A stretch of 64,000 nt of DNA from Telluribacter roseus (lineage in GTDB: Bacteria; Bacteroidota; Bacteroidia; Cytophagales; Spirosomataceae), in contig NZ_JAFEUV020000003.1 of NCBI RefSeq assembly GCF_017355915.2, positions 380,858-444,857 on the forward strand, in the 5' to 3' direction. Within the stretch, counting starts at the first letter, position 1, and each line of letters starts with the position of its first letter. This document shows, one piece after another, positions 12,582 to 18,291 of the stretch. The notes under the pieces are model-generated. The model saw only the letters and a program-made list of their open reading frames with translations. It searched no databases and was not told the DNA's origin. Made by a program: the position numbers and the translations under genes.

Positions 12582-13895
12582 TCAGGCTTTACCCAACCCT
12601 TCTTTGTATACTCTGAGGCAGCGTTCGCGGGCAAAAGCGTGGTCTACCATGGGGGCAGGGTAGTCCAGCGTGTTCAGCTCGGGTACCCAGTGCCTGATGT
12701 ACAGCTTTTGGGGATCAAAGCGGGTGGCCTGTGCCGTGGGGTTAAAGATCCTGAAGTAAGGAGCCGCGTCGGTACCCGATCCGGCGGCCCACTGCCAGCC
12801 GCCGTTGTTGGAGGCCAGGTCGTAGTCGAGTAGTTTGCCGGCAAAGTAGGCTTCGCCCCAGCGCCAGTCCATGAGCAGGTGCTTGACCAGAAAGCTGGCC
12901 GTTACCATCCGCACGCGGTTGTGCATGAAGCCCGTGGCATTGAGCTGCCGCATACCGGCGTCTACCAGCGGGTACCCTGTCCGCCCCTCGCACCATTTCT
13001 GAAATTCTTCCTCATCATTACGCCAGCGGATGCGATCATACTCGGGCCGGAAGGCTTCACCGCGGCCTACCTGAGGGAAGTTCCAGAGGATCTGCTGGTA
13101 GAAGTCGCGCCAGATCAATTCGCTAAGGAAGGTGGCGCTGTGCTGCTGCGCCTTCCGGACCAGTTCCCGGATGCTTACCGTACCAAAGCGCAGGTGTACA
13201 CCCAGTCTGGAGGTAGCGGGTGCAGCCGGGTAGTCGCGGAGGTCGTGGTACTTCTGAAGCAGTTCCTCCCGCACGCTCCTGACCGGAAACGGCTCACCGG
13301 TAGCTTTGAAGCCGATCTGTTCCAGCGTGGGAAGGAAGAGCGGAGCTGTTTTATAGAAATTGTTAAAGTACTTGTCGGTGGGGTAGGAGCCAGCATAAAA
13401 AGGGGTAAGCTGCTCTTTCCATTTCCGGCTGTACGGGGTGAATACGGTATAGGGTGTTCTCTGTCCGCTGAGTACTTCTTTTTTCTCGAAGATAACCTGG
13501 TCCTTGAAAGTCTTGAAGGCAGTACCTTTTTCCCGGAGCAGGTCCGCCACCGCTCTATCCCGCTCCTGGGCGTAGGGTTCGTAGTCGTGGTTGGTGTATA
13601 CTTCGGCTACCTCGTACTGATCCAGTACTTCTTTCCATACTTCCAGCGGGCTGCCATACTTTACAAGCAGGCTGCCGCCCATAGCCGCTAGTTCAGCCTG
13701 AAGACTCGTCAGAGTATTATGGATAAACTCCACGCGCCGGTCGTACGGGTGGTCCAGCGGGTCCAGGATTTTTTTATCGAAAATAAAAAGGGGTAGCACC
13801 GGGTGGCCCGGGCGCAGGGCGTGGTACAGGCCCGCGTTGTCGTGCAGGCGCAAGTCACGACGGTACCAGAAGATCGTGATAGGAGGGAGAGGCAT
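12582..13895 (-). CDS. phrB: Deoxyribodipyrimidine photolyase (class I type)
   Basis: This 437-residue flavoprotein uses blue light to split cyclobutane pyrimidine dimers. The N-terminal Rossmann-like antenna domain begins ITIFWYRRDLRLHDNAGLYH. The C-terminal FAD domain is complete, with WRDFYQQILWN, GYPLVDAGMRQLNATGFMHN and ASNNGGWQWAAGSGTDAAPY. The last string carries the conserved Asn/Trp residues of CPD photolyases rather than of DASH cryptochromes. Length and order are normal. A pair of perfect palindromes lies 36-74 bases upstream of the ATG and presumably controls expression. The gene upstream runs in the same direction but ends before the palindromes, so phrB probably has its own promoter. 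Other cryptochrome/photolyase subtypes cannot be fully excluded. Confidence 0.92.
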   Translation of the reverse strand: MPLPPITIFWYRRDLRLHDNAGLYHALRPGHPVLPLFIFDKKILDPLDHPYDRRVEFIHNTLTSLQAELAAMGGSLLVKYGSPLEVWKEVLDQYEVAEVYTNHDYEPYAQERDRAVADLLREKGTAFKTFKDQVIFEKKEVLSGQRTPYTVFTPYSRKWKEQLTPFYAGSYPTDKYFNNFYKTAPLFLPTLEQIGFKATGEPFPVRSVREELLQKYHDLRDYPAAPATSRLGVHLRFGTVSIRELVRKAQQHSATFLSELIWRDFYQQILWNFPQVGRGEAFRPEYDRIRWRNDEEEFQKWCEGRTGYPLVDAGMRQLNATGFMHNRVRMVTASFLVKHLLMDWRWGEAYFAGKLLDYDLASNNGGWQWAAGSGTDAAPYFRIFNPTAQATRFDPQKLYIRHWVPELNTLDYPAPMVDHAFARERCLRVYKEGLGKA

Positions 13896-13931
13896 ACAGT
13901 GGAAACAAATACAGTAGGCTAACTTCCCGAT

Positions 13932-13969
13932 GTTAAACTTTGTTTATATATAGTTAAACAAAGTTTAAC
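13932..13969. promoter_or_regulatory. Twin palindromic operator upstream of photolyase
   Basis: Two 13-bp palindromes of the form TAAAC-N3-GTTTA (13934-13946 and 13955-13967) have centres exactly 21 bp apart, two helical turns, so they face the same side of DNA. Together they form a perfect 15-bp inverted repeat (13932-13946 / 13955-13969) with an 8-bp AT spacer. This is the geometry of a site bound by two cooperating dimers. The regulator is unknown; photolyase genes are often light- or DNA-damage-controlled. Confidence 0.75.
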
Positions 13970-14002
13970 GTTGTAGTTATACTGGAACAGGCTGGATCCG
14001 GT

Positions 14003-15541
14003 TTACTCAGAAAGGGGCGGGTCAAGCAGGGCCGACAGGTCAGTTTCAAGTACGCTGTTATGGTGTATGGTATACAACTTGTTGCCAATAAGGGTGGATC
14101 TGCCGGAGCCTTCAAACTCCGCTACTTTTTCACCATCCTGATTAATAACAATACTCAGATTGTTTCGGCTAAGGAATCGGTAGCCCGATATAGTTTGATA
14201 GTATATCCAGGCATTAGCTGCCTCCTTAGTCTCAACATTTTCCAGATTTTCATCCAACCCTACTATACTTTTTTCTCTAGTGACGAGGTAAAGTCGGTCT
14301 GGATGAAGCCCGGTAATGCTTTGGTAGGTAGAGTCGTTTTGCTGTTCATAAATATGATCTCCCAGAAAAGAAAAACCTTCACTTTGGACAGACGTACTAC
14401 CTGTTTTGAGACCTGTATGGATAGAGTACCGCTCAATATTTTGCCCTGCGATATAGTAGAGGCTGCTATCCTGCACAGTGAAATCGCCAAAATCATTCTC
14501 CTTTTCCGTTTGCAGTGGATGGTTATAGATTTCTTCTCCGGTATTCGGGTCAAAGGCCGCCAGGAAGGGTTTTCCATAATCAAGCTTACGGTATCCCATG
14601 TAGGCAAATCCACTATTGACCAGTATAAGCCTTTTATTCCTGATAAAAAGGGTAGACTTACTGGTTGACTTTTCTGGTAGTGGTCCTGACCACATCATCT
14701 CGCCGTTCATGTCAAGACATACAATTTTATCCTTGGAAGCAAAGTATAATTTATCTTCATTCAGGAGTACGTTCGAGGCTACGTTACGTACTAGATCATG
14801 ACCCGTAGAAGTCATATATACTCCAGTAAGAAGGCCCGCGGCTATCCCTAACGCATTTTTAGCAATGGTACCTCCGTATTTTTTTTGACCGGTTACGGCG
14901 TGGTAGTCCCAGCCGGTGCCGCTTGGGACATGTATAGTATGCAGGCCTGCCGCTACAATCAGAAGAGTTGAGTCATTGAGGTAGTGTAAGTTATTCCAAC
15001 TATACTCCCGGTTGATTACCCGCTCCCATAGCTTTTGTCCGGTTGTAAGGTCAATGCCTTCCAGTACATTATCAGTGAGCGATTCGTAGCCCATTCCAAT
15101 ATTTGAAGGGGCATCTACATGGTAAAACATGTGTTTGACCTTAGCCATAGGTTCACCGGTTTCCCTGTTCAATAAGCGACTACCGGTAGCGCCGGACTTT
15201 ATCAGACTGGTACCTATCTGCTGATAGCCTTCTGTCTGATAGTTTACTTTCTTTGACCATCGGATTTGCGCAGTCTGTAAGTCCAATGCCATGATGGTAC
15301 CTCTGTTGTTGAGCCATTTTTCATTTCTCACTCCCCGTAGCTGTACCGTAAACAGGTTCAGCGTAGTGTCAAAGGAGGAGGTGTGAATCCTTTCGGAGAA
15401 AATAAATTCCCTGGCAGGCAATTCCTGTTGGGTTAATAGGGTTCTTCCAGGTTGTTTTTCAATAACTTGTACGGCAGATCCGGGGCTTTGCGCCAGTAGT
15501 TTTCCTGAAAGGATCAGTAGAGTTAGTACTAATTTTTTCAT
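14003..15541 (-). CDS. Secreted PQQ-like beta-propeller repeat protein
   Basis: This 512-residue protein has a signal peptide (MKKLVLTLLILSGKLLAQ). Repeated short blades follow, of the type GTIMALDLQTAQIRWSKKV, VLEGIDLTTGQKLWER and PFLAAFDPNTGEEIYNHPL: a beta strand, Asp-x-x-Thr-Gly, then an aromatic strand. That is the usual PQQ/pyrrolo-quinoline-type propeller repeat, without clear cofactor residues. No catalytic domain is visible, so a binding or assembly role in the periplasm is more likely than enzyme activity. It precedes phrB on the same strand, but the operator region lies between them. Base composition is somewhat more AT-rich than its neighbours, while GTAC sites are still frequent, so I treat it as resident. 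Confidence 0.7.
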   Translation of the reverse strand: MKKLVLTLLILSGKLLAQSPGSAVQVIEKQPGRTLLTQQELPAREFIFSERIHTSSFDTTLNLFTVQLRGVRNEKWLNNRGTIMALDLQTAQIRWSKKVNYQTEGYQQIGTSLIKSGATGSRLLNRETGEPMAKVKHMFYHVDAPSNIGMGYESLTDNVLEGIDLTTGQKLWERVINREYSWNNLHYLNDSTLLIVAAGLHTIHVPSGTGWDYHAVTGQKKYGGTIAKNALGIAAGLLTGVYMTSTGHDLVRNVASNVLLNEDKLYFASKDKIVCLDMNGEMMWSGPLPEKSTSKSTLFIRNKRLILVNSGFAYMGYRKLDYGKPFLAAFDPNTGEEIYNHPLQTEKENDFGDFTVQDSSLYYIAGQNIERYSIHTGLKTGSTSVQSEGFSFLGDHIYEQQNDSTYQSITGLHPDRLYLVTREKSIVGLDENLENVETKEAANAWIYYQTISGYRFLSRNNLSIVINQDGEKVAEFEGSGRSTLIGNKLYTIHHNSVLETDLSALLDPPLSE

Positions 15542-15813
15542 TTAAAAATGTATCAGATAAAGGGGGGTAGTTGCCTTTGAGCGGAGTCAATCATAGTATT
15601 TTCTACTATCACCACTGCACAGAGCAAGAATCATACTAAAAATGAGAGCAGGTACACTATAAGCTTAGTGATGGCAAGGTGATGGCAAGAGCAGGAATAC
15701 TAATTTAGCGGCGCTAAGTCAGGTAGTAAAACCGCTCTCAATGTCACAGTATTCGGCACTTTCTGCATTTTGAGTTATATTCAACATTAAATCCTGAACT
15801 AACTCATTACTGT

Positions 15814-18291
15814 ATGCAAAGAGTACTACTATCTGTGCTTACGCTCCTGCTTTTCTCCATGACCCTCAGTTTGGCTCAATCCCCCACGCCTACCGTTGAG
15901 AACTTTACCTCCGAGATGGAAAGGTACGAAGGTTTTTTACCATACTACTGGGATGCGAAGAGAGGAAAGATATGGCTGGAGATAGGCCGTCTGAACACGG
16001 AGCTGCTGTACTACCCTACGCTGGCGCAGGGAGTGGACTCCAACGACATCGGGCTGGATAGAGGCCGCCTGGGGGAGGAGCATATCATCCGGTTTGAGCG
16101 GGTGGGACCAAAGGTACTGATGGTGGAGCCTAACTACCGCTACCGTGCCCTGAGCCCTGATCCGCTGGAACGAAAGGCGGTGGAGGAGTCATTCGCCCGG
16201 TCTGTTCACTGGGGCTTTGACATAGTAGCGGAATCGTACGGACGGGTACTGGTAGACCTGACACCCTTCCTGATGCAGGATGCCGTAGGAGCCGCGCAGG
16301 CCATCAGCGAGACCAGACAAGGCAACTACCGGGTGGATGCTTCTCGTTCGGCCATGTACCCGGAGCGCACCAAAAACTTCCCCCGAAATACGGAGTTCGA
16401 GACCATTATCACGCTGGTAGGTGATAACGCGGGTAACTACCTACGCTCGGTGGTACCTACGCCTTCGGCCGTTACCATGCACCAGCACCATTCGTTTGTG
16501 GAGCTGCCCGACGCGGGCTACACCCCCCGGGCCTTTGATCCGCGGGCGGGGGTGAATGGGCTTGAGTTTTATGACTATGCTTCGCCCGTTGGGGAGCCGT
16601 TGGCCAAGCGGTACCTGGTCCGGCATCGCCTGCAGAAGAAAGATCCTGCGGCGGCCATGAGCGAAGCCGTGGAGCCGCTTGTCTACTACCTCGATCCCGG
16701 TACGCCCGAACCCATTCGCTCGGCCTTGCTGGAAGGCGCTTCCTGGTGGAATCAGGCCTTTGAGGCGGCAGGGTTTATTGATGGGTTTCAGGTCCGGATG
16801 CTGCCCGATACCGCCGATCCGATGGATATTCGGTACAACGTGATTCAGTGGGTACACCGCTCTACCCGGGGCTGGTCGTACGGAGCCAGTATAGTAGACC
16901 CTCGTACAGGCGAAATCCTGAAAGGAAAAGTAACGCTGGGCTCGCTGCGGGTACGTCAGGATTTCCTGATCGCGCAGGGACTGGTAGCCAGGTACGAAGA
17001 GGGACAGCCCGTATCGGATGAAATGATGCAACTGTCACTGGCCCGTCTGCGTCAGCTATCAGCTCACGAGATCGGACACACGTTGGGGTTGCCTCATAAC
17101 TACGTGGCCAGCGTGAGTGACCGCGCTTCGGTAATGGATTACCCGCATCCGCACGTAGAGATCAAAAACGACAGTACCCTCGACCTCTCCAATGCCTACA
17201 CGACTGGTATCGGCGAATGGGATAAAGTAGCCATCAGCTACGCATACCGCGACTTTCCGGAAGGGGTGAATGAGAGAGACTCACTGAACCAGATTATTAC
17301 GGACTACCTGCAGCGCGGCCTGGGCTTCCTGAGCGATCAGGATGCGCGTCCGGCTGGCAGTGCCCATCCGCAAACGCATATGTGGGATGGGGGCAGCAAT
17401 GCCGTGGATGAGCTGGAGCGAGTGATGAAGGTACGGCAGATTGCACTGAGTCAGTTTAAGGAGAACAAGATACCAGTAGGGATGCCGCTGGCTACGCTGG
17501 AAGAGGTACTGGTGCCCATGTACCTGTTTCACCGCTACCAGGTAGAGGCGGCCTCCAAGGTAGTAGGTGGAGCTACTTACAGCTATGCTCTGCGTGGCGA
17601 CGGCCAGACCATCTACAAACCCGTCGAGGGAGGGGAGCAGCGTCGCGCTCTGCGTACCCTGCTTACCACGATCCGCCCGGATGTACTGGCGTTGCCCCGG
17701 CCTGTACTGGCGTTGATCCCTCCGCGTCCGTACGGGTACAACGCTAATCCCAGAGAGGTATTTACACGGCGCACCGGCCTTACCTTTGATCCGTTGGCTC
17801 CGGCCGAGGCCGCTACCAATATGGTACTTTCGCTGGTGCTGAATGCCGAACGGGCCAGTCGCCTGGAAGCGCAGCGGGCCGTAGACACCTCGCTACCCGG
17901 ACTGGGTGAAGTCATAGATGGGCTCGTTGATGATACCTGGAAAAACCGGACGCCCACTCGTGAAAGCTACCAAGCCGCGATCCGCCGTCAGAACGAGCAA
18001 TTGATCCTGCAGTACCTGATTAGCCTGGCCGAAACAACTAACGCCTCACCGGCAGCCCGGGCCATGGCTCAGTTCAAGATCAACGACCTCAGGACCTGGA
18101 TTGACCAGAAGCAGTACGGTGTGGACGAGCAGCACCGGGCGCACTACCAGTTTGCACTACGCCGCATCGAATTGTTTGAAAAGGGTGAATCCCAGAACTT
18201 CCCGGCTCTGAAGACCAATCCGGTACCCGACGGTGCCCCCATTGACCCCGGTCAGGATTGGCTGGAACCGGTATGTGGTTGGGAGGAGTAG
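15814..18291 (+). CDS. Secreted zinc-dependent metalloprotease (DUF5117-type)
   Basis: The protein has 825 residues and a signal peptide (VLLSVLTLLLFSMTLSLAQ). The zincin motif HEIGHTLGLPH starts at residue 418, giving zinc ligands His418, His422 and His428 and catalytic Glu419. A Met-turn SVMDYPHPH follows about 20 residues later, so it is a metzincin-like peptidase. The long N-terminal half begins EGFLPYYWDAKRGKIWLEIG, typical of the DUF5118/DUF5117 region of these Bacteroidota proteases. The C-terminal part is helical. It probably works in the periplasm or outside the cell; no C-terminal T9SS sorting domain is evident. The gene is monocistronic, with 272 bases of upstream intergenic DNA and a bidirectional terminator behind it. 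Confidence 0.87.
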   Translation: MQRVLLSVLTLLLFSMTLSLAQSPTPTVENFTSEMERYEGFLPYYWDAKRGKIWLEIGRLNTELLYYPTLAQGVDSNDIGLDRGRLGEEHIIRFERVGPKVLMVEPNYRYRALSPDPLERKAVEESFARSVHWGFDIVAESYGRVLVDLTPFLMQDAVGAAQAISETRQGNYRVDASRSAMYPERTKNFPRNTEFETIITLVGDNAGNYLRSVVPTPSAVTMHQHHSFVELPDAGYTPRAFDPRAGVNGLEFYDYASPVGEPLAKRYLVRHRLQKKDPAAAMSEAVEPLVYYLDPGTPEPIRSALLEGASWWNQAFEAAGFIDGFQVRMLPDTADPMDIRYNVIQWVHRSTRGWSYGASIVDPRTGEILKGKVTLGSLRVRQDFLIAQGLVARYEEGQPVSDEMMQLSLARLRQLSAHEIGHTLGLPHNYVASVSDRASVMDYPHPHVEIKNDSTLDLSNAYTTGIGEWDKVAISYAYRDFPEGVNERDSLNQIITDYLQRGLGFLSDQDARPAGSAHPQTHMWDGGSNAVDELERVMKVRQIALSQFKENKIPVGMPLATLEEVLVPMYLFHRYQVEAASKVVGGATYSYALRGDGQTIYKPVEGGEQRRALRTLLTTIRPDVLALPRPVLALIPPRPYGYNANPREVFTRRTGLTFDPLAPAEAATNMVLSLVLNAERASRLEAQRAVDTSLPGLGEVIDGLVDDTWKNRTPTRESYQAAIRRQNEQLILQYLISLAETTNASPAARAMAQFKINDLRTWIDQKQYGVDEQHRAHYQFALRRIELFEKGESQNFPALKTNPVPDGAPIDPGQDWLEPVCGWEE

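Follow-up and report, generated by a model that had tools for sequence, protein, structure and literature searches.

What reads the DNA in front of the photolyase gene phrB in Telluribacter roseus? In the window, by which we mean the whole 64-kb stretch analysed here, an initial annotation had pointed to twin palindromes upstream of this gene and had suggested that two dimers bind them cooperatively, possibly those of a light- or damage-responsive regulator. The reading that we favour, and hold to be fairly probable, is that the site belongs to the phrB promoter, as its upstream half. A two-part, promoter-like dyad would be read there by an ECF sigma factor whose gene is linked to carotenoid (crt) genes, and the -35 element would be overlapped by an operator that merR and crtB also carry, its most likely regulator being a CarH/LitR-like MerR protein with a B12-binding domain. 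The features concerned are the following:

12582..13895, minus strand: phrB, DNA photolyase of 437 aa (Pfam DNA_photolyase and FAD_binding_7)
13920..13923, minus strand: predicted -10 element GTTA, from the de novo dyad motif
13932..13969, no strand: whole 15-nt inverted repeat with an 8-nt gap (repeat I10; arms 13932-13946 and 13955-13969, 100% complementary)
13934..13946, no strand: palindrome TAAACTTTGTTTA, reading TAAACAAAGTTTA on the phrB strand; holds the predicted -35
13940..13945, minus strand: predicted -35 element AAACAA, lying within the phrB-proximal palindrome; the AAAC-to-GTT spacing is 22 bp, the commoner class
13941..13960, no strand: inner inverted repeat TGTTTA-N8-TAAACA; overlaps the -35 and is a candidate operator, common to phrB, merR and crtB
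13955..13967, no strand: palindrome TAAACAAAGTTTA, upstream of the -35; phrB of the same genus lacks a counterpart
14003..15541, minus strand (the same as phrB): gene of a PQQ_2-domain protein (Pfam PQQ_2), upstream of phrB

The best NCBIfam matches of phrB are photolyases, with scores under the curated cut-offs. About 2 kb that include the PQQ_2 gene (13898-15872) are found here, where the other genome of the genus that was compared (G015) has about 170 bp, and the PQQ_2 protein had no tblastn match in the G015 phrB locus.

Palindromes, promoter-like dyad and inner repeat in front of phrB

Two perfect TAAAC-N3-GTTTA palindromes are indeed present at 13934-13946 and 13955-13967, with centres at 13940 and 13961 and therefore 21 bp apart, and the 15-nt perfect inverted repeat to which they belong has its last base separated from the phrB ATG (13895) by 36 bp, as had been described. 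The two cooperative dimers read from this geometry find no backing in conservation. Two exact copies at 21-bp spacing occur in one of 200 family genomes, that of T. roseus itself, which rules out the twin palindrome as a conserved unit, and no such palindrome lies before phrB of G015, whose phrB is 86% identical. With up to one mismatch, TAAAC-N3-GTTTA is not rare in the window (two sites versus a shuffle mean of 1.64), and perfect inverted repeats of 15-16 nt are not uncommon there (three more, I4, I5 and I12). Spacer-3 palindromes were found in five of 152 phrB upstream regions versus 0.13 in shuffles, three of the five coming from one genus. A single TAAAC-N3-GTTTA is placed at the phrB -35 in three genomes of another genus, g22, and another lies far upstream of phrB, at -162, in a single genome from a different family. 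The twin pattern in its exact form is a local feature, and the predicted promoter below it recurs in related bacteria.

This promoter-like element came out of a de novo search by expectation-maximisation in 90 phrB upstream regions as a two-part motif, AAACA(A/T)TT followed by GTT. Its general form is AAACA(A/T)-N15/16-GTT, the distance from AAAC to GTT being 21 or 22 bp, and its usual place in the same 90 regions is 40-85 bp ahead of the start codon. The dyad scores at least 8.5 in 75 of 110 family phrB upstream regions, as against 0-2 in each of 20 dinucleotide shuffles and none on the opposite strand; 90 of the sequences scored had also served to train its weight matrix. These 110 (30 given loci and 80 chosen ones) were drawn from the 145 of 150 family genomes with a match, leaving out contig-edge matches, most of genus g13 and some others; the last 20 were chosen once the result on the ECF gene was known, with six ECF-less genomes among them on purpose. 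In T. roseus the phrB dyad is ATAAACAAAG-tttaaca-TCGGGAAGTTAGC, and with a score of 11.1 it is the best site on both strands of the window, so that the -35 half falls within the phrB-proximal palindrome. A conserved AAC in the -35 is a form that suits an ECF promoter, and the dyad has the further marks of one: a two-part -35/-10 structure, fixed spacing, an upstream position and strand specificity. G015 retains the dyad at a near-equal distance from phrB (-56 versus -52 in T. roseus) between flanks that differ, which argues for function. Comparison of the relatives' phrB upstream regions thus goes against the twin geometry, which is not conserved, but not against the promoter dyad beneath it.

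At the level of the whole genome, a loose dyad pattern is not enriched (68 sites versus 62 for the control; 50 of the 68 were annotated by eye), and a regulon list therefore cannot be derived from it. The second photolyase gene, of the DASH type, has no upstream dyad of at least 8.5 (L020).

The better unit, in place of the twin palindromes, is a single inverted repeat with the sequence TGTTTA-N8-TAAACA, of which the phrB-proximal arm overlaps the -35. This inner form is also rarer. In the T. roseus DNA searched (about 487 kb or some 8% of the genome, in part selected around these genes) it has three distinct places, namely upstream of phrB, upstream of merR and between crtI and crtB; in the same DNA all other spacers from 0 to 20 gave one site in total (N19), and there was no site with one mismatch. 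The repeat is also present before phrB of G024 and before merR of G015. At merR the repeat and the 3' end of the CruF gene overlap, and coding constraint may help to preserve this copy. The copy in the crtI-crtB gap was found in none of 59 relatives and is accompanied by a weak dyad only (4.3), and the repeat is absent from the 30 upstream regions of ECF genes that were searched. We read it as a putative operator, specific to this lineage, that lies over the -35.

It is conceivable that the symmetry arose by chance, AT-rich DNA around a genuine AAACA -35 having become palindromic in this species, which would be compatible with the promoter part of our explanation. The palindromes are not conserved in G015, and immediately upstream the two species differ by about 2 kb of DNA, as could be expected in that case. 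However, TGTTTA-N8-TAAACA is confined to phrB, merR and crtB in the 487 kb, and spacer-3 palindromes exceed their shuffled number in front of phrB, though mainly through one genus. We regard chance alone as unlikely.

The crt-linked ECF gene and its association with the dyad

In T. roseus a gene for an ECF sigma factor directly precedes crtI, which is followed by crtB. Among 82 family genomes, the dyad is found before phrB in 56 of the 70 that have an orthologue of this ECF gene and in none of the 12 that lack it (Fisher 1.2e-7), counts that are not independent by descent. These genomes account for 82 of the 110 phrB upstream regions, the remaining 28 being outside the table, and the 12 ECF-less genomes represent four genera plus one g22 genome. 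Counted by genus, the dyad is present in 24 of 27 with the ECF gene and in 0 of 4 without it (p 0.001), the ECF-less genome of the mixed genus g22 being left out. Fourteen of the 70 ECF-bearing family genomes have no dyad at the threshold used. Outside the family, within the order, the association is weak, with figures of 12/36 and 0/6 (p 0.16) from 42 of 94 genomes with a match, and one of the ECF-less genomes scores 8.2. In this comparison ECF matches of 43-48% identity (G298, G230, G217 and G259) were scored as absent; that of G217 is itself part of the merR-crt-phrB cluster, which makes the 0/6 hinge on counting such matches as absent.

Losses of the ECF and MerR genes coincide in part. 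Three genomes, G045, G046 and G010, retain the ECF gene (70, 61 and 77% identity) together with the dyad (15.3, 10.4 and 11.2), and their best MerR matches are poor: diverged in G045 and G046 (42 and 40%), weak and partial in G010, a genome that is 88% complete. Thus, the dyad tracks the ECF gene and not the MerR gene.

The dyad also occurs upstream of merR, where it scores 11.6 in T. roseus; of 30 orthologues, 12 reach 8.5 or more, with 0-2 in each of 20 shuffles and none on the opposite strand; the 30 were taken from 77 genomes with a match. The neighbourhood of the ECF gene was compared in the best 80 loci of at least 561 relatives. In these 80, crtI follows in 61, crtB is present in 58, MerR in 19 and CruF in 18; CruF and merR stand before ECF-crtI in 18, 17 of which also have crtB, and phrB is found in none. 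Among the matches listed, the nearest ECF records are from Rhabdobacter, Larkinella and Spirosoma. In G217, which belongs to another family, merR, ECF, crtI, crtB, nudix, phrB and the photolyase-related DPRP follow one another in one row on one strand; its ECF protein is 48% identical to that of T. roseus, and its phrB has no dyad of its own.

The ECF gene itself has no upstream dyad of at least 7.0 in T. roseus (plus strand of L174), and one of 30 orthologues has one of at least 8.5, so there is no sign of autoregulation. A cognate ECF gene that shares the promoter of its regulon is common, not universal. Upstream of the ECF start, most of the 30 orthologues (L190-L219) have TTGTYTAA and TTCAACA blocks, which are a candidate MerR operator or promoter. 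The 160-bp gap between ECF and crtI in T. roseus contains no dyad at the search threshold and no listed gene. A dyad lies between the two genes in 8 of 61 loci, against 0 in one mononucleotide shuffle, and in five of them (three Siphonobacter, one Spirosoma and one Cytophagales MAG) it is 46-78 bp before crtI, which is only a hint.

Could another sigma factor use the dyad as its promoter, or an activator as its binding site, with the crt-ECF link reflecting shared ancestry only? Besides the crt-linked ECF gene, the genome has 43 further PF08281 matches, mostly of ECF size, the co-occurrence signal, whose counts lack independence by descent, weakens outside the family, and the ECF gene lacks a dyad of its own, all of which would fit. 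A dyad scan before all 44 matches (30 as loci at a threshold of 8.5, 14 as stretches at 7.0) gave few dyads, and the nearest of three that were checked (L130, 8.5) ends at least about 170 bp before the ECF start. Against this alternative stand the absence of the dyad from every one of the 12 ECF-less family genomes, spread as these are over several genera, and the links to merR and the gene cluster; we consider it improbable.

The MerR-B12 gene, a proposed working and known systems

The second component of the explanation favoured here, in which the crt-linked ECF factor would read the dyad, is the MerR protein. The merR gene of T. roseus lies beside a CruF-like carotenoid gene and encodes a MerR HTH and a B12-binding domain. 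W-x9-EH and the lower-ligand His motif (E/D)-x-H-x-x-(G/S), with S as its last residue in many, are present in 30 of 30 orthologues. PF02310 is unmatched in the T. roseus protein and matched in that of G217, and with 88.8 bits the former is far under the cut-off of 400 for the NCBIfam CarH equivalog.

From these elements we infer a light switch. In the dark, the MerR-B12 protein would hold the ECF gene down, where the TTGTYTAA/TTCAACA blocks may be its site of action, and would cover the phrB -35 by binding the inner repeat. In the light it would be released and the ECF sigma factor made, which would then read the dyad at phrB and merR, with transcription of the photolyase gene, the carotenoid genes and merR. 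The light- or damage-responsive regulator once proposed for the twin site finds partial support, as comparison links the site to a light and carotenoid gene set with MerR-B12 and ECF genes; its two-dimer geometry finds none.

The CarH/LitR regulons of Myxococcus, Thermus and Bacillus likewise combine a MerR HTH, a B12 domain with W-x9-EH and a link to carotenoid genes. CarH operators are described as tandem 11-bp direct repeats, nAnnTnnACAn (PMC8156234), in contrast to the inverted TGTTTA-N8-TAAACA found here. By eye, the TAAACA half fits the TnnACA of this consensus, with single units forming an inverted pair at phrB; at merR there are two TAAACA 11 bp apart, their nature as CarH-type units being judged by eye only. 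For CarH, the papers examined describe no inverted operator with an N8 spacer fused to an ECF -35.

According to the sections consulted of a study on Pseudomonas, phrB is among the light-induced genes of the class II LitR regulon (PMC9758184). The situation in T. roseus resembles it in the joint presence of a photolyase gene and a litR-type gene and in a site that overlaps the -35, light control being the feature of Pseudomonas. However, Pseudomonas uses a sigma70-type promoter with TGTACA-N12-TGTACA (PMC9758184), whereas here the dyad is of the ECF type and the regulator retains its B12 motifs. In Myxococcus, the ECF sigma factor CarQ drives the carotenoid gene crtIb in the light, as summarised in part of PMC8156234, so that there too an ECF gene is tied to a carotenoid gene; in T. 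roseus it precedes crtI. CarQ is held by the anti-sigma factor CarR (PMC8156234), whereas no gene is listed in the 160 bp between ECF and crtI of T. roseus.

Closer to T. roseus, a merR-rpoE-crt cluster has been reported in Echinicola marina, with the same gene set of merR, an rpoE-type sigma gene, crtI and crtB; in the text available of that paper the word photolyase is absent and no promoter site is described (PMC8683446). In a Chryseobacterium, going by excerpts of the report, a LitR-like gene was speculated to act in light-induced carotenoid synthesis (PMC7064467). A literature search at the level of titles and abstracts, with subscription papers mostly outside it, found no paper joining an ECF promoter to a photolyase in Bacteroidota.

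It is possible, and we put it forward tentatively, that Cytophagales have a light regulon not yet described, where a CarH-like B12 photoreceptor controls an ECF factor and through it photolyase and carotenoid genes, and that in this lineage the photoreceptor would also bind an inverted TGTTTA-N8-TAAACA fused to the ECF -35. For the light control of DNA repair in a group of Bacteroidota with carotenoid genes, this locus offers candidates for both the sigma factor and the photoreceptor, together with a short promoter that can be tested.

Other palindrome and dyad-like sites in the genome and its relatives

The T. roseus genome has nine distinct exact TAAAC-N3-GTTTA sites, versus three for the reversed control pattern. 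A genome search for this palindrome, from which hits at light-related genes had been hoped for, returned none at the loci of merR, the crt genes or the second photolyase; of the seven sites other than those at phrB, three are grouped around a tetR gene and the efflux genes downstream. As a genome-wide light-regulon motif the palindrome is ruled out, there being none on the contig stretches of the DASH photolyase or of merR.

A TetR-family repressor, either the regulator of this tetR/efflux locus on contig C13 or a paralogue, could bind the palindromes at phrB and repress the gene. Three TAAACANTGTTTA sites stand around tetR and the efflux genes, each phrB palindrome is one mismatch away from TAAACANTGTTTA, the phrB palindromes of the three g22 genomes fit this form exactly, and a pair 21 bp apart would suit two dimers. 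However, the central triplets differ, being AAA/TTT at phrB, and no light or repair gene was seen by eye among the ORFs listed around tetR. Moreover, the twin is not conserved, and the inner repeat is common to merR and crtB, two loci without the 13-bp palindrome. We give such a repressor a small chance of acting at phrB.

That the inverted repeat is merely a transcription end or RNA hairpin of the PQQ-domain gene, whose stop lies 33 bp away on the same strand, has hardly any chance of being right, as the 106-nt stretch over the 15-nt repeat does fold as an RNA hairpin (z -3.84), but with an AT-rich stem, no T-run after it and no place among the terminator-like structures listed, and it overlaps the dyad that G015 keeps without the PQQ neighbour.

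The C13 locus itself has its three TAAACANTGTTTA palindromes at L014:7721, 8773 and 9181, around tetR (with a TetR_N domain), a small gene and the efflux genes, an arrangement from which it is likely that the locus is TetR-autoregulated.

Some dyad-like sites were seen in other contexts. Two similar 76-aa proteins (L266:1501 and L272:77) have AAACAW-N-GTTA about 25 bp before the start, and at L012:10785 a site scoring 9.5 lies about 40 bp before a gene that by eye resembles a short-chain dehydrogenase. In Algoriphagus, Cyclobacterium, Mariniradius and a MAG, the gene that follows crtB has dyad-like sites at its end, and these precede a gene that by eye is ispH-like (L364:11543, L369:5698 and L359:11549), with similar positions in L362, L367 and L368; the ORFs were viewed in three of these six loci, and the site is a possible internal promoter.
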